Shown here piece by piece: positions 659 to 13,678 of a stretch of DNA of 64,000 nt. The DNA comes from Spirochaetales bacterium (GTDB lineage: Bacteria > Spirochaetota > Spirochaetia > Sphaerochaetales > Sphaerochaetaceae), in assembly GCA_022788185.1 (NCBI GenBank), contig JALEVV010000033.1, positions 1 through 64,000 of the forward strand, given 5' to 3'. How positions within the stretch are numbered: position 1 is the first letter of the stretch; each line of letters begins with the position of its first letter. Both the position numbers and the translations under genes were made by a program. The notes under the pieces are model-generated. The model searched no databases, had not been told where the DNA came from, and was given only the letters and a program-made list of their open reading frames with translations.

Positions 659-1330
659 TTATTCTTCCACAGGCATTGCCATTGTTTTTTTGATGTTGTC
701 GATATGGGTTCTCATGGCATTGACCGCCCTTTCGGGATTGCGGGCCTTTAGGGCAAGGATTATCTCATGCATTTCGCTGAGGGTGGCATTTGCTCTCTTG
801 TGGTATGTAATGTTTGAGATCTGGATGCGTTTGATGATGGAAGAGAAGGAATTTATGGTCTCTGCAACCATCGAGTTGGATGAAGCGGCATAGATTTCAC
901 TGTGCATTTTTCCGTCAAGATCATATATCAGACTTCGTACCTGATCTTCCGGCTGGATTGAGAGGAGGGCAACCACCTGATTATATTCCTTCAGAAGGGA
1001 GTCTATTATCTTCTCATCGATTGTTTCAACGGCCCGTTCTATGGCATAGCACTCCAGCAGGCAACGGAGGTCGCAGACATCTTTTCCCTGTTCGATTGAA
1101 AGACTTTTTACCAGTGTGCCTACCTGTGGCTTTGACTCCAGCATTCCCTCCTGGGCAAGCCGTGATACAGCCTTCCTTACGGGATCACGGCTTACTCCGT
1201 ATCTGGCAGCCAGCTTTGTTTCGGACAGTTTCTCGCCGGGTTTGAAGAAGAGAGTGACAATGTCATTTTTCATTTTCTCATACACAACATCCGCAGATGT
1301 CGCTTTCCTGATGTTATCGCTGATCTCCAT
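659..1330 (-). CDS. GntR-family regulator, FCD subfamily
   Basis: Transcription factor of the FadR/FCD branch of GntR. An N-terminal winged helix-turn-helix (about residues 14-74, with LSETKLAARYGVSRDPVRKA) is followed by an all-helical FCD ligand domain. That domain keeps the Asp/His set typical of metal-containing FCD proteins (YDLDGKMH, SEMHE, MRTH). I chose the ATG at 1330 because GGAG lies 7 bases upstream of it; the ATG six codons earlier has no ribosome site. It is the last gene of the same-strand run starting at 8377, so it probably controls the TctABC/LarA/enolase-like operon in response to the substrate or an intermediate. It also has its own promoter with an inverted repeat (1364-1394), suggesting autoregulation. 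Ligand unknown. Confidence 0.88.
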   Translation of the reverse strand: MEISDNIRKATSADVVYEKMKNDIVTLFFKPGEKLSETKLAARYGVSRDPVRKAVSRLAQEGMLESKPQVGTLVKSLSIEQGKDVCDLRCLLECYAIERAVETIDEKIIDSLLKEYNQVVALLSIQPEDQVRSLIYDLDGKMHSEIYAASSNSMVAETINSFSSIIKRIQISNITYHKRANATLSEMHEIILALKARNPERAVNAMRTHIDNIKKTMAMPVEE

Positions 1331-1363
1331 TCCCCGGCTCCAATACATGTGTTTTTAACGCTT

Positions 1364-1401: not shown

Positions 1402-2679
1402 TTACCATTTTCGGGTTATCAGATTTCTGTTTTCATCAAAGCACAGGGAATAAGGACCTTCCTCAAGTGACAGTCCCTTGCCGGTTGCTTCATCAATCAT
1501 GGACTCTGAAACCTCAATCAGGTCTAGCCTGAGGGTGTTCTTTATCCGCACGATTCTCAGTCTTTCATAGTCCACATCCGGGCAGGTCTTTATACCTGTT
1601 CTTATTGCATCGTAATCATCTGCCATGATTAGAGGAACCATACCCCCTTTTACGGTTCTTGCAGTAAGGAAATTGGGGTAGGTCTTTTCCCTGTCCATTT
1701 TCCTGAAGGCCCTTTCCGTGGAGATGTCTGCAAGGCCGAACCCTGCGGCATTACCATCGGACTCTTCCGTCAGGTCAAGGACGGCAAGCCGTTTGATGAA
1801 AGACTTTGGGAGCATGTGTTCTGACGTGAACCTCTGAATTATATTGCAGTCCATCCCCGTACCGGTTATATTTTTGCCGAATTCATCCACTATCAGGAGA
1901 TCAATATTGTCAAACGGTATTGATGGCAGGAGTGCCTTGGCTCTTTCAAGCAGTTCCGGTTCCCTGTCCATTATCTCATCCATGGGAATAGCTTCAATGA
2001 AGCATGGATCATCATATGAGTTCTCAATGATGCCCAGGGAGAAAAGGACATTGGAATGGTCCCTGAATACTCTGCCTATTTTCTCCAGATTAGTGCCCAT
2101 ATTCGCCATCCCCTGATAGTGACAGTAATCGGCACCTTTCTGTTTTCCAAGTCCAATCACGCACATCTTTACCATCCCGCTTTCGTATTTTCCCCTGAAT
2201 GAGCAGTGTGGCTTTATTCTTGCAATAGTGACCGTATAATCTGCTCCTGCAGCATTTTTATCCATGTTGACCGGAACCCCGTCTTCGGTCTCTCCGATGA
2301 TGACGGTTTCCATTGATGAACGTATTTCAGCTTTGGTGTATTCCTCAGTGACTCCGAGGTGCTCAAGGATTCTCCTCTGATTTTCGGCAACGGCTCCGCC
2401 ATGGCTTCCCATGGCAGGGACTATGAATACGGCCGCTCCATGATCCCTGAGGACGGAAACCATGGTCTTTGCAATTTCAGCAATGTGTGAAATACCTCTG
2501 CTGCCTACGGCAAGTGCAACTGTCTTCCCGGAGATTTTTTCTATCCCTTTAACGGAAGAGACTGTATCCCTGATCCTATCTTCAATGTTCCTGATGTGTT
2601 CAGTGCTGAAGCTCTGTCTGCAGAGGAACATCTTTGGTATTTTCACGTCTTTGAGGATCTCTTCATAGACCGGATTCAT
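1402..2679 (-). CDS. LarA-like (DUF2088) protein, putative hydroxy-acid racemase/epimerase
   Basis: Belongs to the lactate-racemase LarA superfamily, whose known members use a nickel-pincer nucleotide to racemise or epimerise 2-hydroxy acids. Visible features are GSRG (59-62), MGSHGGA (90-96), KPH (156-158), FRGKYESG (161-168) followed by K171, and H187, consistent with the His/Lys-rich active site of the family. Length is 425 residues, as usual. The start overlaps the stop of the TctA gene (ATGA), so the two are translationally coupled. Its position behind a carboxylate transporter suggests it interconverts stereoisomers of the imported acid. No larB, larC or larE cofactor genes lie in this window, so the cofactor must be made elsewhere or the protein works differently. 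Substrate not predictable from sequence alone. Confidence 0.75.
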   Translation of the reverse strand: MNPVYEEILKDVKIPKMFLCRQSFSTEHIRNIEDRIRDTVSSVKGIEKISGKTVALAVGSRGISHIAEIAKTMVSVLRDHGAAVFIVPAMGSHGGAVAENQRRILEHLGVTEEYTKAEIRSSMETVIIGETEDGVPVNMDKNAAGADYTVTIARIKPHCSFRGKYESGMVKMCVIGLGKQKGADYCHYQGMANMGTNLEKIGRVFRDHSNVLFSLGIIENSYDDPCFIEAIPMDEIMDREPELLERAKALLPSIPFDNIDLLIVDEFGKNITGTGMDCNIIQRFTSEHMLPKSFIKRLAVLDLTEESDGNAAGFGLADISTERAFRKMDREKTYPNFLTARTVKGGMVPLIMADDYDAIRTGIKTCPDVDYERLRIVRIKNTLRLDLIEVSESMIDEATGKGLSLEEGPYSLCFDENRNLITRKW

Positions 2680-4187
2680 TCCTTGGCTTCTCCTTTATTT
2701 GATTTTCTTGCCCTTGAAATCACGGTGGATGCTATGACTGCAACAGCTACAAGGATGAAGAACATTGCAACCGGGCGATGCAGGAAGATTGAGGCACTTC
2801 CGTTACCAAGCTTGATTGCCCTTCTGAATTCACCTTCAAACATCGACCCCAGAACCAGCCCAAGCACTATGGGGGCCATCGGGAAGCCTCCTCTGGTCAT
2901 TACGAATCCGATAAGCCCGAAAAAGAGTGTAAGAAGCACATCAAAGAATGATCCTCTGATGGCATAGGAACCAACAAGGGCAAGCATGACCAGGATGGAA
3001 TTGAGTATATTCACGGGTACATTGAGCGTCTTTACGAAAAGCTTGATGCCGAATACCTGGAGTAGGACCATAAAGATCGTGGCAACGAAGACCATAGTGA
3101 ATATGCCCGATACGATCGAAGGCTTTTCACTGAACAGGGTAGGGCCCGGTGTGATTCCATGAATCATCAACCCACCCAGCAGGACGGCAGTGACGCTGTC
3201 ACCGGGTATGGAAAGAGTGAGCATGGGGATAAGTGCTCCTCCGCATACACCGTTGTTCGATGCTTCAGATGCAATGACTCCGTCAGGGTTTCCCTTACCA
3301 AACGTATCAGGTTCCTTTGAGAATCTTTTTGCCTGATCGTAGGAAAGGAAGGCCGCTATGTTTCCGCCTGCTGCGGGGATGATGCCTATGAAGGTTCCGA
3401 TGAGTGCGGAACGTATGATGTTGAACTTTCGTTTCCACTGTTCTCTGAACGGAGGAACGATATTCCTGATGGTAAGGTCCTTACCGCTGATCTTCTCATT
3501 GTCCTTATCCATGCAACTGTTTATGATCTGCGGAATTGAATAGAGACCAATCAGAGCTGCAACCGTACTGATTCCGCTCATCAGATTGACAGAGCCGAAG
3601 GTGAATCTCATATCGCCCCAGATCGGGTCGATTCCCACGAATGAGAGTGTTACTCCCAGGAGTCCCGATATGAGTCCCTTTACGACGGATTTTCCCGACA
3701 CAGCCGCAATGATCGAAAGTCCGAAGAAGGCCAGTGCGGCATATTCCGGTGATCCGAAACCGGTACAGATTCTTGCAAGCAGTGGCGCTATGGTACAGAG
3801 CAGCAGCCAGCTTATGATGGATCCCCAGCCTGATGAAAATGTGGCCCATCCAAGTGCCCTTGCTGCCAGTCCGTTTTTAGTCATGGGATAGCCGTCAAGA
3901 CTTGTGACGACCGATGAAGGTGTGCCCGGAATGTTTATCAGGATTGCTGATATTGCTCCTCCGGCAATGCCTCCGATGTATACACCTATCAATGTGCCAA
4001 TTGCGGTGACCTCGCTCATTGAGAAGGTCAGGGGTATTATCAGGGCAACACCCATCGTGGCGCTTAATCCGGGAAGCGCACCGAAAATGAGGCCTACAGC
4101 CACACCGAGCAATACCCAGAGCAGACCTGCAGGATTAGTGAATACGTTGACAATTCCAGCAATAACAGTTTCAAATGTCATCTTCAA
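2676..4187 (-). CDS. tctA: TctA-family large membrane subunit of tripartite tricarboxylate transporter
   Basis: Large integral membrane subunit of a TTT-family secondary carboxylate transporter, 503 residues, the normal family length. It has about 12 hydrophobic segments. Family hallmarks are visible: GALPGLSATMG near residue 40, IPGTPSSV about residues 105-112, and IPAAGGNIAAFLSYDQAKRF about residues 270-290. It works with TctB (6 bp upstream) and the periplasmic binding protein TctC. Energy comes from an ion gradient. The substrate class is citrate, tartrate or other hydroxy-carboxylates; neighbouring LarA-like and glycerate kinase genes favour a hydroxy-acid. Confidence 0.93.
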   Translation of the reverse strand: MKMTFETVIAGIVNVFTNPAGLLWVLLGVAVGLIFGALPGLSATMGVALIIPLTFSMSEVTAIGTLIGVYIGGIAGGAISAILINIPGTPSSVVTSLDGYPMTKNGLAARALGWATFSSGWGSIISWLLLCTIAPLLARICTGFGSPEYAALAFFGLSIIAAVSGKSVVKGLISGLLGVTLSFVGIDPIWGDMRFTFGSVNLMSGISTVAALIGLYSIPQIINSCMDKDNEKISGKDLTIRNIVPPFREQWKRKFNIIRSALIGTFIGIIPAAGGNIAAFLSYDQAKRFSKEPDTFGKGNPDGVIASEASNNGVCGGALIPMLTLSIPGDSVTAVLLGGLMIHGITPGPTLFSEKPSIVSGIFTMVFVATIFMVLLQVFGIKLFVKTLNVPVNILNSILVMLALVGSYAIRGSFFDVLLTLFFGLIGFVMTRGGFPMAPIVLGLVLGSMFEGEFRRAIKLGNGSASIFLHRPVAMFFILVAVAVIASTVISRARKSNKGEAKE

Positions 4188-4193
4188 ATCCTC

Positions 4194-4682
4194 CTAAAAC
4201 AGCATGCTTAACAGTGGTTCGGGAAAATCGACGCTGAAGAGAAAGCCGAATATCAGATAAATGGCCGCAGTTGCTCCAACGCTTACCGCAAACGCCTTAA
4301 GCCAGGAACAATCTTTCCATCTCAGTATCTTGGCTTCGACCGTGATGAACAGCAGTGAGCTGATGGCAAAGCCTGTTACATTCCAGAGAGCCGCATATAC
4401 GATAATCAGGGCAAGGGTAAGAAGTTTGATGGGGTGAAGCCTTTCAAATGATTCCCCTGACTCATTATGCTGTCTTACTGCCTGAATGATGTTTGAAATC
4501 AGTTTCGCGGCGCAAAGGATGATCATGACAGCAATTATTCCTTTGGGAAATGTCATGGACTTCATTCCATTGACTTTGAGTGATTTGGCACTCATTGCTA
4601 CTTTGAACAGATATGAGAAGACACAGATGAATAGTACATATACAAAGTTCTCATATGTTTTTTCCGTTTTTTCATTTGCCAT
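4194..4682 (-). CDS. tctB: TctB-family small membrane subunit
   Basis: Small membrane subunit of the TTT transporter, 162 residues. Four hydrophobic segments are seen (about 10-30, 45-65, 88-120 and 130-155), the topology expected for TctB. The family is poorly conserved in sequence, so the call rests on length, topology and its fixed place between tctC and tctA. It ends 6 bp before the tctA start. Confidence 0.85.
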   Translation of the reverse strand: MANEKTEKTYENFVYVLFICVFSYLFKVAMSAKSLKVNGMKSMTFPKGIIAVMIILCAAKLISNIIQAVRQHNESGESFERLHPIKLLTLALIIVYAALWNVTGFAISSLLFITVEAKILRWKDCSWLKAFAVSVGATAAIYLIFGFLFSVDFPEPLLSMLF

Positions 4683-4743: not shown

Positions 4744-5730
4744 TCAGTTCGTGAATATCTCTTTACTTGCCTTCTCCAGGCCGTTATAGATGTCTGTGAT
4801 GTAAGCATCGAAATCATCACCTGAAAGAACATTCAGCTGGATTCCGACACCAGCGGCAAACTCCTTATACTCATCGGAGTTGATAACGTTGGTAAACATT
4901 TCAACAATCTTGGCCTCAACTTTGGGATCAATGTTTTTCGGGCCCATGAGGTACGCCATCTGCTGGATATTGCCAAGGCGGAACACGTCATATCCGAGAG
5001 ACTCAAATGTCGGGACTTCCGGAAGGATTGTTATACCTTCCCTGTTGAATACGCCCACAATCTTAAGCTCGCCGCCTTTTACCTGTGCAATGGTTTCTGA
5101 AGGCTTGAGAACGCCGCAGTCCACATGTCCGCCGATGAGTTCGGCAACAACTCTTGATCCACCGTCGAAGGGCATGAAGTTGAATTCAGAGCCAACCTGC
5201 TCCTGAAGCAGAGTCGCATAGATCTGGTTGACGTTGTTAGTGCCGGGAACACCGCATGATACCTTTCCTGGATTTGCCTTCAGGTCTGCGATAAGTGCCT
5301 CCGCATCGCTGTATTTTCCATTGTTTTTGACAACGAGAACAATGGGCTCCTCCATGACGCTCAGCATGTTGGTTGTGGCATCAAGGGTGGAGTCGACAAG
5401 GCCCTGTGCGAGAAGTGCAAGGTATGAGCTTGTTGCCAGACCAAGGGTATATCCGTCATTTTTGGAATTTGCCGCTTCAAGAATACCTACTGCGGAACCG
5501 CCGCCGGGAACGTTCTTGATTACGAGGTTCACATCATACATTGATTTGAAAACCGGCTGCAGGGCTCTTCCTGCAAGGTCGTTTGTTCCACCCGGGTTCC
5601 AGGGAATGATAAGTGTGATTTCCTTGGTAGGATAATTGACTTCAGCACTGCTTTCAGCCTGACCGTTAGCGAACACTGCAGTCATAGCAATGAGACAGAG
5701 TGCCAATACCATGAAAAACTTTTTTTTCAT
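4744..5730 (-). CDS. tctC: TctC-family periplasmic carboxylate-binding protein
   Basis: Extracytoplasmic solute receptor of the TTT family (Bug/TctC), 328 residues. The signal peptide (about 1-21) ends VFANGQ, a signal peptidase I type site with no lipobox cysteine, a form common in spirochaetal binding proteins. The mature N-terminus has the family motif YPTKEITLIIPWNPGG, with GGTNDLAGR following, the region that binds the ligand carboxylate. It delivers a carboxylic acid to TctAB, encoded just downstream. Start chosen by an AGGAG site a few bases upstream. Confidence 0.92.
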   Translation of the reverse strand: MKKKFFMVLALCLIAMTAVFANGQAESSAEVNYPTKEITLIIPWNPGGTNDLAGRALQPVFKSMYDVNLVIKNVPGGGSAVGILEAANSKNDGYTLGLATSSYLALLAQGLVDSTLDATTNMLSVMEEPIVLVVKNNGKYSDAEALIADLKANPGKVSCGVPGTNNVNQIYATLLQEQVGSEFNFMPFDGGSRVVAELIGGHVDCGVLKPSETIAQVKGGELKIVGVFNREGITILPEVPTFESLGYDVFRLGNIQQMAYLMGPKNIDPKVEAKIVEMFTNVINSDEYKEFAAGVGIQLNVLSGDDFDAYITDIYNGLEKASKEIFTN

Positions 5731-5781: not shown

Positions 5782-7008
5782 TTAAAGATTAAGCTCCTTT
5801 GCGATTCTCAGGAGTCTGTTGTATTTGACGTTTCTTTCCATCCTGACGGGGGATCCCAGCTTGATCTGCTTTGCCCCGACTGCCACTGCAAGGTCAGCAA
5901 TGAAATCATCATCGGTTTCTCCGGACCTGAGGGAGACCGTGACGTCCATGCCCTTTGACTGGGCATAAGCTGCGGCCTTTATCGCCTCGCTTACCGTTCC
6001 TATCTGGTTGATCTTCAGCAGAAGGCCGTTTGCACACCGGTGGTATTTCTCAAGAAATGTGATATTTGAAGTAAAGAGATCATCACCGACATTCTGGCAA
6101 GGGAAGGGGAAGTCCCTTATCAGACAGAATCCTTCTTCATCATTCTCATCAAATCCGTCCTCGATATATTCGAGGGGATGCCGAGTGCACAGTTCCCTGT
6201 AGTATGAGGCAAGTCCCTTTCGGTCCAGCATCCCTTTTCCGACTTTGTACCTGTCAGACTGACGGTCATAAAGCTCGGAAGCGGCAACATCCAGGCCAAG
6301 TCCTACTTTTCCTTCATAGCCTTCCTGCCTTGCCGTATCCATCATGATGGTAAAGGCTTTGTCAGTACTTTCGACAGGAGCGGCAATGGCCCCACCGTCT
6401 TCCATGCATGGTCCGTAAAGTTCAGTGATGTTTTTCTCCAATGACTTTCTCAGTTTTACCAGTGCCTCAAGCTGATCTGAAAAACTGTCGAATTCATGGA
6501 AGATATACAGATAGTCCTCAAATTCAAGTCCGGATACTCCGAACTCTCCTCCTGCAATAACAGTGGCGATTATGTTGGGAATTGCGTAATGATTTCTGTC
6601 TGTCAGGGTTGCATACAGGGACTTTCCAAGTGATTTTGCCCTGACCTTTGCAAATGCAACGGACACAGGCAGGATGGCGTTGGCTCCAAGCCTTGATTTA
6701 TTCTTAGTTCCATCAAGCTCAAGCATTATTCCGTCAATCTCCTCAATTGAGGAAATCTCATGCCCGATGAGGGCAGGAGCGATAATATCGCTGACATTAC
6801 CAACAGCCTTGCGGACACCCTTTCCCTGGTATCTTGCCTCATGATCGGTGAGGACGAAGGCTTCATTGGTCCCTGTGGATGTACCTGCCGGTACACTCGC
6901 AGTTGCCTCCGCTCCGTTTTCACTTGTCATAGTGACTGCAACAGTCGGATTTCCTTTTGCATTCAGAATTTCATAAGCTTCTATTGATTTGATCCTGTCT
7001 TTCATCAT
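5782..7008 (-). CDS. Enolase-superfamily paralogue with altered active site
   Basis: Full-length enolase fold, 408 residues, aligning with true enolase from N- to C-terminus. Conserved are the metal ligands (D240 in LDVAASE, E283 in IEDG, the GDD at 308-310), the catalytic Lys (K332 in LKINQIG) and K383 in QIKLGS. Key residues differ by my gap-free alignment: F156 replaces yeast His159, D165 replaces Glu168, D204 replaces Glu211 and L360 replaces His373. Four of the residues that bind 2-phosphoglycerate or act on it are thus changed, so ordinary enolase activity is doubtful; a related dehydration of another hydroxy-acid is a reasonable inference. Two adjacent ATG codons start the gene and GAGG fits the second better. 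It starts 4 bp after the glycerate kinase stop. Confidence 0.85.
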   Translation of the reverse strand: MMKDRIKSIEAYEILNAKGNPTVAVTMTSENGAEATASVPAGTSTGTNEAFVLTDHEARYQGKGVRKAVGNVSDIIAPALIGHEISSIEEIDGIMLELDGTKNKSRLGANAILPVSVAFAKVRAKSLGKSLYATLTDRNHYAIPNIIATVIAGGEFGVSGLEFEDYLYIFHEFDSFSDQLEALVKLRKSLEKNITELYGPCMEDGGAIAAPVESTDKAFTIMMDTARQEGYEGKVGLGLDVAASELYDRQSDRYKVGKGMLDRKGLASYYRELCTRHPLEYIEDGFDENDEEGFCLIRDFPFPCQNVGDDLFTSNITFLEKYHRCANGLLLKINQIGTVSEAIKAAAYAQSKGMDVTVSLRSGETDDDFIADLAVAVGAKQIKLGSPVRMERNVKYNRLLRIAKELNL

Positions 7009-8438: not shown

Positions 8439-8746
8439 ACATTTTTTTTATTTTTCCTGTCATTTTTAATAAGTGGGTCATATTCGTAAATGGCTGTTGA
8501 TGTTGAGCTACTTCAAAAATACTGATCAATATACGCACGTTTTTCATTAACAATGAAGTTGAAATGGGATTTGATGTACTTACATGCATTGCCCGGACTT
8601 CGTAGGTGTTAATGGCTTTTTTATCTTGGTATGGTTTGCAGTGATGGGTACTTAATGCAGGATAATTGCTGATTTATAATCAAGCTTTTTTCTTTGATGG
8701 AACGCAGATTCAAGTTAGTATTGAATTAGGTTATGGAGGTATCATT

Positions 8747-9697
8747 ATGGCAACAGCGGAACAGGTTAAGAGTCTTGTTAAGGCACATATTGAAAACGAT
8801 GATGAAAAATTCAGAACAGTCGTTCTTCAGATTGCTGCTCATGAAGCCAGAGCCGGACATGATAATTCCGCAAGGGAGCTGAAGAGTCAGATAGAAAAAA
8901 TTACAAAGAGATCCACTATCTACAGGTTCGATACCGGAAGTCAGCTCTGCCTTTTCACCACGCCGTCATTCAGAATTGAGGATTTAATAGTAACGGAAGA
9001 GGTTAGCATAAAGATTGAAAGAATCCTTATGGAATACCGAAACAGAAGGAAGCTTCAGTCTCATGGCCTTGCAAACAGAAGAAAGATATTACTTGAAGGG
9101 GTTTCAGGAACAGGGAAAACCCTGACAGCATCTGTTATTGCATCTGAATTGAATTTGCCCCTGTTTACAGTACAGATGGATAGACTGGTATCAAAATTCA
9201 TGGGCGAGACAAGTGCAAAACTGAGACAGATCTTTGATTCCATGTCTGTTAATGAAGGTGTTTACTTCTTTGATGAATTCGATGCCATTGGTTCCGACAG
9301 AAATCTTGATAACGAAGTGGGTGAAATGAGAAGGATACTGAACTCATTCCTTCAGTTCATTGAACAGGATTGTTCTGAATCCCTGATCATATCAGCTACT
9401 AATAACCAGAAGTTGCTTGACAAGGCTTTGTTCAGAAGGTTTGATGATGTGCTGCACTATGATTTACCTACCGATGATGAGATTTGCAGGCTTTTTGAGT
9501 ATAAGTTAGGTGCATATTCACCTTCTTTCATCTCAGACAGATCACTTATAAATGAGGCAATGGGACTGAGTCATGCTGAGATCGTACGTGTCTGTGATGA
9601 TGCCATAAAGAGTACGGTACTGACTGAGACCACAATAACAGAGCAGGAGATTAAGAATTTGATCAAAGAGCGACATTTGTTATATAAGGAAGCATAA
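8747..9697 (+). CDS. AAA+ ATPase, orphan defence-type
   Basis: 316-residue AAA+ ATPase. Walker A GVSGTGKT is at 118-125, Walker B VYFFDEFD near 172-179, sensor-1 ISATNN near 215-220, and an Arg-finger-like RRFDD follows. The ~90-residue N-terminus, beginning MATAEQVKSLVKAHIENDDE with AAHEARAGH, resembles the small ATPases that I recall being encoded next to subtilisin-like S8 proteases. No protease gene is present here; downstream comes an IS remnant. Start at 8747 follows GGAGG. A TATAAT at 8675-8680 with a weak -35 could be its promoter. Codon use is A+T-richer than the core genes, suggesting acquisition. Confidence 0.75.
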   Translation: MATAEQVKSLVKAHIENDDEKFRTVVLQIAAHEARAGHDNSARELKSQIEKITKRSTIYRFDTGSQLCLFTTPSFRIEDLIVTEEVSIKIERILMEYRNRRKLQSHGLANRRKILLEGVSGTGKTLTASVIASELNLPLFTVQMDRLVSKFMGETSAKLRQIFDSMSVNEGVYFFDEFDAIGSDRNLDNEVGEMRRILNSFLQFIEQDCSESLIISATNNQKLLDKALFRRFDDVLHYDLPTDDEICRLFEYKLGAYSPSFISDRSLINEAMGLSHAEIVRVCDDAIKSTVLTETTITEQEIKNLIKERHLLYKEA

Positions 9698-10158: not shown

Positions 10159-10211
10159 TTTGCGGAAAAATCTGCAAAATCACTTGATAAATAGGTGTTA
10201 TGCACTATAAT
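10159..10211 (+). promoter_or_regulatory. Promoter of the ATPase-HEPN pair
   Basis: TTGATA at 10184-10189 and a perfect TATAAT at 10206-10211 are separated by 16 bp, 31 bp ahead of the ATPase start. Just upstream is an 8-bp inverted repeat, TTTGCGGA (10159-10166) and TCTGCAAA (10171-10178), with one mismatch, a possible operator or activator site. Confidence 0.65.
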
Positions 10212-10242
10212 GAGAGTGAAAACAGTGAAGGGAGGAATTCAG

Positions 10243-11490
10243 ATGTTACTTGAATTCTCGTGCTCAAACCATCGCTCCATTCGTGAAGAAGTGATTTTTT
10301 CGATGGTTGCTGGAAAAGACTCGGCCCATGAAGAAAAAACAAAAGAATTCGCAGGAGTGAATATTTTGAAGGCCGCCGTTGTGTACGGTGCCAATGGATC
10401 AGGAAAGAGCAATTTTATCGATGCGATTGCGTTTGTAAAAAATCATATAGTCAACAGTATCAGAAACCAGCCAGGACAGGGAATGCGGCAGACACCGCAT
10501 AAGCTGGATGGATTTGAAAAAGAAAGCACTTACAGAATCCAGTTTGTAACAAAGGGAGTCCGCTATGTGTTTGGTTTTTCCCTGAAGAATATGCTTGTTT
10601 CGGAGGAATACTTATATTATTTTCCCAACGGCAGACAGACGAAGATATTTGAGCGCAGCGGAGAGACTTTCACTTCCGGAAACAGATTCAGGGGAAAATT
10701 CAACACCTGTAAGGATGTGTTGAAACCAAACCGTCTGCTGCTTTCCTGTGCGGCAAACTTCAGCACTGTTGAGGAAGTTGAAGATGCATTCCACTTCTTT
10801 ACCGATGAACTGGTAATCTATGTTCCAGGTAATCAGGATAACTGGATGAAATACTCTTTGTATCAGATGAATACTAACGGAAAGGTGAAGAACGCTGTAT
10901 TGACTTTCCTGGATGAATTGGGAACGGGCATTCGGGATATCAGAGTCACAATTGATCAGAAGCAATTGGAAACCTCTCAGCTCCCGCCTTTCCTTTCGGA
11001 TGAGTTTAAAAGCATGTTGCTGCAGGAGAAAGTGGATGCCATTTCTGCGAAGGTTGTATATGATGGGTTTGAAACAGATCTCCTTGTGGAGGAATCAACA
11101 GGCGTCAGAAAACTGGTCGGTATGCTTTGCCCGCTGATTGACATTATGATAAACGGAAAGGTCCTGATCTGTGATGAGCTGGAATCCAGTCTGCATGAAT
11201 CCCTTGTATTCGAACTTGTGAAGCTGTTTGTGAACGAGCAGACGGAAAAGTTTGCACAGCTGATATTCACGACCCATGAAACCGGCCTGTTGAACCTGGA
11301 TTTGTTCCGAAGGGATCAGATTTGGTTTGCAGAAATGAAGGGGACGGACCGGTCTACGGATCTGTTCTCGCTGGCTGAAATCAGAAACGTCAGAAAAGAA
11401 GATAATTATGGCAGGGGATACATCACCGGTAAATACGGTGCGATCCCCATGCTGAATCTCGACTTTGCAAATGTAGTGTCCAATATGTGA
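10243..11490 (+). CDS. COG1106/AAA15-type ATPase, RloA/AriA-like
   Basis: 415-residue SMC/ABC-like ATPase. Walker A GANGSGKS is at 49-56, a signature-like EESTGVRK at 283-290, Walker B VLICDELE near 307-314, and a switch-region FTTHET follows. The start MLLEFSCSNHRSI is typical of COG1106 proteins, the ATPase component of RloAB and related anti-phage pairs. GGAGG lies 8 bases upstream of the ATG at 10243. Its stop overlaps a GTG start of the HEPN-like gene, so the two are coupled. Such ATPases are thought to sense infection and release or activate a nuclease partner; applying that here is inference. Confidence 0.85.
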   Translation: MLLEFSCSNHRSIREEVIFSMVAGKDSAHEEKTKEFAGVNILKAAVVYGANGSGKSNFIDAIAFVKNHIVNSIRNQPGQGMRQTPHKLDGFEKESTYRIQFVTKGVRYVFGFSLKNMLVSEEYLYYFPNGRQTKIFERSGETFTSGNRFRGKFNTCKDVLKPNRLLLSCAANFSTVEEVEDAFHFFTDELVIYVPGNQDNWMKYSLYQMNTNGKVKNAVLTFLDELGTGIRDIRVTIDQKQLETSQLPPFLSDEFKSMLLQEKVDAISAKVVYDGFETDLLVEESTGVRKLVGMLCPLIDIMINGKVLICDELESSLHESLVFELVKLFVNEQTEKFAQLIFTTHETGLLNLDLFRRDQIWFAEMKGTDRSTDLFSLAEIRNVRKEDNYGRGYITGKYGAIPMLNLDFANVVSNM

Positions 11491-11504
11491 GAGGGATGAT
11501 AGGA

Positions 11505-12242
11505 ATGGCAACAAGAAACTTAGATCTTATCCCCAGAGTGGAGGATGTAAGGGAAGCGCGGCCAGTTGCTTTGCCTGTACAATTCTCTCTTGAAGAAATC
11601 AAGCAGCATTTCGATGATAGCCTTAACGGAATCAAAGGGCAGTATTTGGTTGCTGATTTGCTGATACAAAACGGGAATGAAGTAGGGGGGAAAACGATTT
11701 GGCGGTCACAAGTTGTTCTGGCAGAAGGATTGCTGGATTTCTACATTCACGAGATGAGTAAATTCTGCCTATTCCGGATGTTCTCGGGGCAATGGGAAAA
11801 GACCGAGAAGTACGGTAGTTTTCAGGTTCCAATGTCCAAGGTTGAGGCAGCAATTGCTGCTTCTGAATCACAGGACTGGTTTTTTAGCTATCTCAACGAC
11901 CGTTTTAGCAGAGATGTGTTCCTTGGAGTTGAAAGTATGAGAGACCAGCTTAATCTAATAGGTATTGGATTTGTTCCTGTGATGGTTAAGGCCTTTCCAA
12001 TGCAGAAAGAAGAGGAGTCTAAGAAGTATGGAACACAAGTTGTGAAGGATTTGTTCCAGCGCAGAAATGATATTGCACATCAAAATGACCGCAGTCACGC
12101 ATCTGCTGAACAGACGGACATAACTAAGGTATTCGTTGAGGATTATATTGAAAAGATTGAAAAAATCGTAAGTGCAATACAGGGAATCGCTGTTCAGAAG
12201 GATAGCTCAGTACGGGATGATGAACAACAGACGTCAGGATGA
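11505..12242 (+). CDS. HEPN-domain putative RNase, RiboL-PSP-like
   Basis: 245-residue mainly helical protein. It carries RNDIAH at 187-192, which fits the HEPN catalytic motif R(N/D/H)x3-4H; the preceding R and following Q/N/D-rich segment are as in RiboL-PSP-HEPN proteins. HEPN proteins are metal-independent endoribonucleases, often toxins or abortive-infection effectors. It follows the ATPase directly; alternative starts are the GTG at 11487 (overlapping) and ATG at 11496, and I chose 11505 because GATAGGA precedes it. Its 3' end abuts a fragment of an RloB-like gene. Predicted role: effector of the ATPase. Confidence 0.7.
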   Translation: MATRNLDLIPRVEDVREARPVALPVQFSLEEIKQHFDDSLNGIKGQYLVADLLIQNGNEVGGKTIWRSQVVLAEGLLDFYIHEMSKFCLFRMFSGQWEKTEKYGSFQVPMSKVEAAIAASESQDWFFSYLNDRFSRDVFLGVESMRDQLNLIGIGFVPVMVKAFPMQKEEESKKYGTQVVKDLFQRRNDIAHQNDRSHASAEQTDITKVFVEDYIEKIEKIVSAIQGIAVQKDSSVRDDEQQTSG

Positions 12243-12433: not shown

Positions 12434-12970
12434 TTGGAGTCGATCAATTTAACATGTAAGGCAAGATACCATTCCAGTGCAATGGATGCAGAGAACTCGT
12501 ACAAAGGTATGGATTTTGACGAGCTACCTGATATTTATGTAATATTCATTACGGAACATGATTATTATGGCAGAGGTAAGGCAATCTACAGGGTACGCAG
12601 AACTGTTGAAGATGATAACAGCCTGTATGGCGATGGTTCCAATATCCTGTATGTGAATGGCCAGTATAGGGATGACACCGACATCGGAAAGCTGATGCAC
12701 GACTTCTGTTGCTCAGATCCTGACGATATGCTGATTCCCATGCTTGCTGAAAGAACACGATATTTGAAGACCGACGAGAAGGAGGTAAAGCATATGTGTG
12801 AACAGATGGAAAGAATTGAAAACAGAGGTGAGGCTAAAGGCGTATTGAAAACTTTAATTCAGCTTGTCCAAGATGGAGATCTGAGCCTAAATAGAGCTGC
12901 CGAAAAAGCCGGAATGACAACAGAAGAGTTCCTTAAGAAAAAAGAGGAATACGAAAAAAACAACCACTAA
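12434..12970 (+). pseudogene. Rpn-family (PD-(D/E)XK) recombination-promoting nuclease, N-truncated, copy 1
   Basis: Encodes the second part of an Rpn/PDDEXK_2 protein: ARYHSS, then LPDIYVIFITEHDYYGRG, RRTVEDD and LYVNGQYRDDTDIGKLMHDF, all typical of the family. The N-terminal nuclease half with the D...E-x-(Q/K) catalytic residues is missing; an in-frame TGA (12428-12430) lies just before the first possible start, a TTG. After residue ~135 the C-terminus (VLKTLIQLVQDGDLSLN then a helix-turn-helix-like KAGMTTEEFLKKKEEY) differs completely from copy 2. An internal ATG at 12794 has an excellent ribosome site. As a nuclease this copy is dead. Confidence 0.75.
12794..12970 (+). CDS. Possible intragenic Rpn small protein (RpnS-like), copy 1
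   Basis: 58-residue in-frame product from the ATG at 12794, beginning MCEQMERIEN. AAGGAGG ends 8 bases before it. In Escherichia coli, rpn genes carry an internal start that makes a small C-terminal protein antagonising the full protein; the same arrangement is seen here. The codons around the site also encode an ordinary E-K-E-V-K-H sequence, so the match could be coincidental. Confidence 0.45.
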   Translation: MCEQMERIENRGEAKGVLKTLIQLVQDGDLSLNRAAEKAGMTTEEFLKKKEEYEKNNH

Positions 12971-13135: not shown

Positions 13136-13678
13136 GTGGAGTCGATCAATTTAACATGTAAGGCAAGATACCATTCCAGTGCAATGGATGTAGAGAACTC
13201 GTACAAAGGTATGAAATTTGACGAACTGCCGGATATTTACGTAATATTCATTACGGAACATGATTATTATGGTAGAGGTAAGGCAATCTACAGGGTACGC
13301 AGAACTGTTGAAGATGATAACAGTCTGTATGGTGATGGTTCCAATATCCTGTATGTGAATGGCCAGTATAGGGATGACAATGATATCGGAAAGCTGATGC
13401 ACGACTTCTGTTGCTCAAATCCTGACGATATGTTGATTCCTATGCTTGCTGAAAGAACACGATATTTGAAGAACAACGAGAAGGAGGTAAAGCATATGTG
13501 TGAACAGATGGAAAGAATTGAAAACAAAGGCGTGGCTAAAGGAATCGGAATTGGCGAGACTAATAAAGCAAAAGACATGGCAATTAATCTGAATGATATG
13601 GGTGTAGATATTGAGGTAATTGCAAAATCAGCCAATGTAAGTGTTGACCAAGTTAAGGAATGGCTCGCCAAAAAATAA
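13136..13678 (+). pseudogene. Rpn-family nuclease, N-truncated, copy 2
   Basis: Nearly identical to copy 1 for the first ~135 residues (same truncation point, same preceding stop) but with its own C-terminus: GIGETNKAKDMAINLNDMG followed by IEVIAKSANVSVDQVKEWLAKK, a short helix-turn-helix-like tail common in Rpn-family C-termini. Lacks the catalytic N-terminal half. The shared truncation means the unit was truncated first and duplicated afterwards. CTGACA and TATAAA, 17 bp apart at 13075-13103, could be its promoter. Confidence 0.75.
13496..13678 (+). CDS. Possible intragenic Rpn small protein (RpnS-like), copy 2
   Basis: 60-residue in-frame product from the ATG at 13496, again 8 bases after AAGGAGG. 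Shares the first ~10 residues with the copy 1 product, then diverges. If expressed, each copy would yield a small protein of different specificity, as reported for polymorphic Rpn C-termini. Confidence 0.45.
   Translation: MCEQMERIENKGVAKGIGIGETNKAKDMAINLNDMGVDIEVIAKSANVSVDQVKEWLAKK

Follow-up and report, generated by a model that had tools for sequence, protein, structure and literature searches.

Enolase is usually regarded as acting on one substrate only. Its residue His373 (yeast numbering, assigned by motif for the proteins described below) is situated near the C3 hydroxyl, and C2 receives its proton on a single face in enolases. Glycerate 2-kinase is the enzyme for which the MOFRL fold is chiefly known, and it yields 2-phosphoglycerate, on which enolase normally acts. 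LarC and LarE are the enzymes that make the nickel-pincer cofactor. In the enolase of M. tuberculosis, the equivalent of Glu211 acts on the C3 hydroxyl and the equivalent of His159 touches this hydroxyl, while Lys335, Arg364, Lys386 and Ser42 between them attend to the C2 proton, the phosphate, the carboxylate and the second Mg (PMC10619443). Among the 2-hydroxyacid racemases and epimerases of the LarA superfamily, homologues can racemise glycerate, and some epimerise all isomers of 2,3-dihydroxybutyrate (PMC11770544).

An enolase paralogue in a spirochaete operon

The window (i.e. the whole 64,000-nt stretch of DNA that was analysed, from a gut-type anaerobic spirochaete) carries an intact ORF of 408 aa on the minus strand (7008 to 5782), the plus strand of the same segment being full of stops. 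It represents a clade of enolase paralogues, here named EnoP, that on sequence grounds has a rebuilt active site and accompanies a normal glycolytic enolase. Full-length homology to enolase was originally predicted and is borne out: both enolase domains are matched (PF03952, 151 bits; PF00113, 195 bits), TIGR01060 ('eno') aligns over the full length with 354 bits (cut-off 300), and the top PDB match is 2pa6 (phmmer, E 8e-88). The nearest solved relatives are ordinary enolases, to which EnoP is about 36–44% identical along its full length. An AlphaFold model built from nine sequences gave a confident enolase fold (pLDDT 87.6; Z about 50 and rmsd about 2 Å against enolases), the weak stretch being part of loop 2 (159–162).

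As the TIGR01060 cut-off is passed, standard pipelines would label EnoP an enolase, and current mis-labelling of this kind is likely. The NCBIfam 'eno' equivalog cut-off was exceeded by each EnoP protein tested (that of the window and those of L042, L046 and L073), and automatic annotation would render these as phosphopyruvate hydratase. No described family with the EnoP residue set was found in the profile libraries and open-access literature searched, in line with the original prediction, and open-access literature searches that paired an enolase paralogue with glycerate 2-kinase, LarA with both enolase and glycerate 2-kinase, or 4-deoxythreonate with enolase, and one on carboxyphosphonoenolpyruvate synthase, gave nothing relevant.

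Table 1. Genes of the EnoP operon, with coordinates in the window.
Feature	Coordinates	Strand	Remarks
MOFRL/DUF4147 kinase, glycerate 2-kinase fold, 472 aa	7013..8431	minus	PF13660 + PF05161; PDB 1x3l, E 1.6e-91
EnoP, enolase paralogue, 408 aa	5782..7008	minus	H159F, E168D, E211 to G205 (or D204 by indel), H373L, T397L
TctC, periplasmic binding protein, tripartite tricarboxylate transporter	4744..5730	minus	PF03401; conserved beside EnoP
TctB, small membrane subunit	4194..4682	minus	PF07331
TctA, large membrane subunit	2676..4187	minus	PF01970, 495 bits
LarA-family isomerase, NPN group 22	1402..2679	minus	NF052515, 493 bits (cut-off 400)
GntR/FCD regulator, probable operon regulator	659..1348	minus	PF00392 + PF07729; conserved in most related operons

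Active-site residues

EnoP shares with enolase (TIGR01060, PF03952 + PF00113) the two-domain homology and fold, the two-metal site, Ser39, Lys345, Arg374 and Lys396, but lacks both the Glu168/Glu211 pair that serves the C3 hydroxyl and the pair His159 and His373; Thr397 is also replaced. The metal ligands Asp246, Glu295 and Asp320 correspond to D240, E283 and D309, the catalytic base Lys345 to K332, and Lys396 to K383, and these five positions show no change in any of the 11 EnoP sequences. The phosphate and metal residues Arg374 and Ser39 are retained as R361 and S44. The substitutions H159 to F156, E168 to D165 and H373 to L360 are unambiguous and common to EnoP relatives, while all 27 canonical enolases of the same bacterial family have H/E/H at these sites; T397 is replaced by L384. 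The original prediction thus holds for these three sites, as for the retained metal ligands and catalytic lysine, and phmmer, MAFFT and hhalign restore none of the lost His and Glu residues in the window protein. Across the clade, E168D, H373L and T397L each occur in 11/11 sequences, and position 159 is Phe in nine, Tyr in one (L046) and His in one (G960). Since G960 still has His159 and L046 has Tyr, the sequences suggest that the His159 change came last.

At the Glu211 site, a gap-free replacement by Asp204 had been proposed, and this part of the original prediction did not stand. All three aligners pair EDGGALAP with GDEGGFAP without gaps, which puts D204 opposite the conserved D210 and G205 opposite E211; placing D204 opposite E211 requires a one-residue insertion after GG. 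By the three aligners the site is Gly in the clade (Thr in one sequence), and if the insertion is allowed it becomes Asp (Glu in G960). The insertion register may still apply, because the acid-acid-Gly-Gly pattern is similar and G960, the deepest member, reads PEEGGALAP here. In either register the aligned sequences indicate that Glu211 itself is gone from EnoP. The choice of register rests on the sequence aligners; a canonical enolase modelled with AlphaFold as a control, from only two sequences, came out poorly (mean pLDDT 54.7). Given the residue roles in M. tuberculosis enolase and the location of His373 (see above), the changed residues of EnoP would thus concern C3, and the kept residues C1, C2 and the phosphate. 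EnoP proteins are natural variants with which the role of Glu168, Glu211, His159 and His373 in enolase specificity can be probed.

Distribution and selection

Within the same bacterial family, EnoP is present in four of 139 genomes (G000, the window genome; G053, G083 and G111), with 57–64% identity, and is clearly separated from the canonical enolases, which stand at about 40%. Further members, from Clostridia (L040–L046), emerged from a genome scan, and searches of evenly drawn samples, comprising 296 genomes of Spirochaetota and 391 and 398 genomes from the class and phylum to which two clostridial holders belong, yielded one new, deeper member only (G960). Occurrence is sparse and spans two phyla, Sphaerochaeta-type spirochaetes and Clostridia, most of the genomes in this comparison being metagenome assemblies. 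In trees, the 11 EnoP sequences form one clade (support 100/97) outside every canonical enolase sampled.

Codon differences among EnoP genes affect 60–71% of third positions and 22–38% of first and second positions. Because third positions differ far more, the genes are judged from their sequences to be under purifying selection; a pseudogene is ruled out by this conservation. The residue set likewise appears not to be due to chance, as it recurs in a monophyletic, two-phylum clade with constrained codon evolution.

The original prediction had hinged on a further enolase gene in the genome, and a separate canonical enolase is indeed encoded there (G000:C79:2722-3957). The same is true of all ten genomes that hold the other EnoP loci (11/11 in total), and EnoP as a replacement of enolase is thereby ruled out.

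The operon and its kinase

EnoP lies in a kinase/transporter operon, and the predicted hydroxy-acid setting is supported by the conservation of this operon. The gene order in the window, all on the minus strand, is MOFRL kinase, EnoP, TctC, TctB, TctA, LarA-type isomerase and GntR; there is one overlap, and no gap between genes exceeds 61 bp. The order in G053 and G083 is LarA, kinase, EnoP, GntR, TctC, TctB, TctA, and G111 has the same genes split across two contigs, with a D-2-hydroxyacid dehydrogenase in addition. Clostridial loci keep the kinase-EnoP pair, mostly with GntR and TctCBA, and are without LarA, which is found in the EnoP operon only in spirochaetes. L042 has no recognised transporter nearby and a D-2-hydroxyacid dehydrogenase instead, and L044 has ETF and a GlcD-type oxidase in addition. 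Allantoinase-like genes beside L040, seen by eye and considered as a link to glycerate, were set aside, being on the opposite strand and in one genome only.

The kinase is encoded 4 bp upstream of EnoP in the window. It immediately precedes EnoP in 10 of the 12 loci, and at several loci the two genes overlap by 4 bp. The two other loci count against a fixed pairing: L045 has no adjacent kinase (MOFRL genes are present elsewhere in its genome), and in L046 the MOFRL kinase is divergent (29%) and lies on the opposite strand. Within the bacterial family, the EnoP-type kinase (at least 64% identity and at least 650 bits) was found in exactly the four of 139 genomes that hold EnoP; the next MOFRL kinases among the 139 drop to 198 bits, with at most 39% identity. 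Compared with MOFRL glycerate 2-kinases (PH0495, 1x3l; T. maritima, 2b8n), the EnoP-neighbour kinase has the same two domains, DUF4147 and MOFRL, but misses both NCBIfam glycerate 2-kinase equivalog cut-offs (198 against 550 bits and 130 against 670 bits). That a conserved EnoP clade with a rebuilt leaving-group pocket is tied to a specific kinase, and in most cases to a transporter, suggests that rumen and gut anaerobes have a catabolic pathway which current annotation would hide, as EnoP proteins pass the enolase equivalog cut-off.

The operon isomerase scores above the cut-off for NPN group 22 of the LarA superfamily, but neither LarC nor LarE was detected in the window genome (94.9% complete). 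Among six genomes with a group-22 LarA, these enzymes were detected in one (G423), the others being G000, G422, G424, G428 and G429. The LarA literature searched named no substrate for group 22.

Proposed function and alternatives

The observed residue changes, the clade, the operon, the co-occurrence with the kinase and the coexisting enolase are best accommodated if EnoP works as a lyase of the enolase family on some substrate that is not 2-phosphoglycerate, acting in a relay of import, kinase and elimination (probability about 0.55). A 2-hydroxy acid would be imported through TctABC; in spirochaetes only, the LarA-type isomerase would invert C2 and so make both stereoisomers usable. The MOFRL kinase would then phosphorylate the C2 hydroxyl (O2). 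EnoP would use the Mg2+/Ser39/Arg374/Lys396 set, which is unchanged, to hold the carboxylate and phosphate, its equally unchanged Lys345 would remove the C2 proton, and the C3 group would be eliminated in a rebuilt, more apolar pocket (F156, D165, L360, L384). The product, phosphoenolpyruvate or a C3-substituted analogue, would be handed to central metabolism. In this scheme the phosphorylated substrate, the order of the steps and the elimination chemistry are what we infer. Judged from the sequence comparisons, EnoP thus probably carries out, on some other phosphorylated hydroxy-acid, a step like that of enolase: the strict link to the kinase, and the retention of the phosphate, carboxylate and C2-proton residues apart from His159, suggest that the substrate of EnoP is the 2-phospho acid made by the kinase, while the changed C3 residues suggest either an acid other than plain glycerate or a different leaving group. 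A dehydratase for another substrate, as proposed earlier, would be the most economical reading, with the amendment that the kinase neighbour points to a phosphorylated substrate and not to the free 2,3-dihydroxy or 2-hydroxy acids that had been put forward alongside 2-phosphoglycerate.

As to the acid, the leading candidate is a 2-phospho-2,3-dihydroxy acid whose C3 group is small and apolar, e.g. derived from 2,3-dihydroxybutyrate (4-deoxythreonate/4-deoxyerythronate), though any such specific assignment is quite unlikely to be right. 4-Deoxythreonate-type acids are a first guess, offered with low confidence, because small apolar C3 groups would fit F156, L360 and L384 and because LarA homologues epimerise 2,3-dihydroxybutyrates; the hydrophobic residues Phe and Leu do not, however, reveal which substrate is used. 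A true Gly in place of Glu211 would also deprive EnoP of the acid that normally assists the loss of hydroxide.

The main rival is plain glycerate assimilation, in which EnoP is a diverged true enolase that converts 2-phosphoglycerate from an adjacent glycerate 2-kinase to phosphoenolpyruvate within a dedicated glycerate-uptake operon. The intact metal site, K345 and K396, the score above the enolase equivalog cut-off, the annotated glycerate kinase among the solved MOFRL relatives and the ability of LarA homologues to racemise glycerate (PMC11770544) all fit. Such an enzyme would, however, be redundant beside the normal enolase present in 11/11 genomes, the kinase is clearly unlike other MOFRL kinases of the same bacterial family, and H159, E168 and H373 are each replaced in all or nearly all members of the clade, so that this explanation is considered unlikely. 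Improbable to a greater degree is the expulsion of a group other than water (e.g. from a 2-phospho acid that bears an ether, ester, amine or sulfonate on C3), which would give ordinary phosphoenolpyruvate and call for no further operon enzymes. Replacement of the hydroxide-departure residues with C2-proton abstraction kept would agree with this, as would the finding that most EnoP operons have no further conserved catabolic enzyme after EnoP, but no neighbouring enzyme indicates such a group, and the clade-specific replacements include no basic residue to suit a sulfonate. Movement of the C2 proton without elimination, by an epimerase or racemase of a 2-phospho acid, could use the retained K345 and metal site and a possible absence of the leaving-group acid, but is highly improbable given that enolases protonate C2 from one face, that no new base was identified on the other, and that spirochaete operons already hold a LarA-type C2 isomerase. 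A reading of EnoP as a catalytically inactive or moonlighting copy of enolase, in favour of which the several replaced catalytic residues might speak, is equally hard to credit in view of metal ligands and lysines invariant in 11 sequences, purifying selection and strict operon linkage.

Other enolase paralogues beside kinases

A second family of enolase paralogues (L074:9875-11176, L080:5122-6426, L081:5885-7189, L082:5979-7274, L083:4760-6049) carries E168D, H373A and T397V with the motif ADEGGFWP, and adjoins an APH/MTR-kinase-like kinase. Where checked, it is accompanied by a GntP permease or Tct transporter and an MtaA/CmuA-type methyltransferase, with a possible CdaR-like regulator nearby. 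Like EnoP, it is paired with a kinase and a transporter gene, and has E168D and nonpolar residues at 373 and 397. Unlike EnoP, it keeps His159 and Glu211, has Ala at 373 and an unrelated, APH-type kinase, and forms a separate branch within or beside the canonical enolases. Its substitutions at 168, 373 and 397 together with an unrelated kinase are a parallel to EnoP.

A tandem pair of highly divergent enolase-like proteins, one of which is without the catalytic Lys345, occurs at L077:4469-7074, where it adjoins a MOFRL kinase (29% identical) and a TRAP transporter; tandem enolase-like pairs are also present in L078 and L079. As two other enolase-paralogue groups adjoin kinases, enolase-like plus kinase modules seem to have arisen more than once. 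EnoP may belong to an undescribed anaerobic catabolic route in which O2 is phosphorylated and an enolase-type elimination follows, giving C3-substituted phosphoenolpyruvate, or phosphoenolpyruvate itself by expulsion of a non-water group; the chance of this is put at somewhat under even. If true, the other modules would be independent versions of such a route, and enolase would have been repeatedly recruited for hydroxy-acid catabolism.

Flanking genes

Defence-type genes adjoin the operon in the window: an IetA-like AAA ATPase (8666-9697) and, nearby, an AbiLi-like ATPase with a HEPN partner (10195-12242). They are followed by two adjacent, almost identical ORFs (12434-12970 and 13136-13678), of which the one tested had no Pfam or PADLOC match. 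On its other side (54-623) the operon is flanked by an ISL3-family transposase fragment, and for this reason it may lie on a mobile island.
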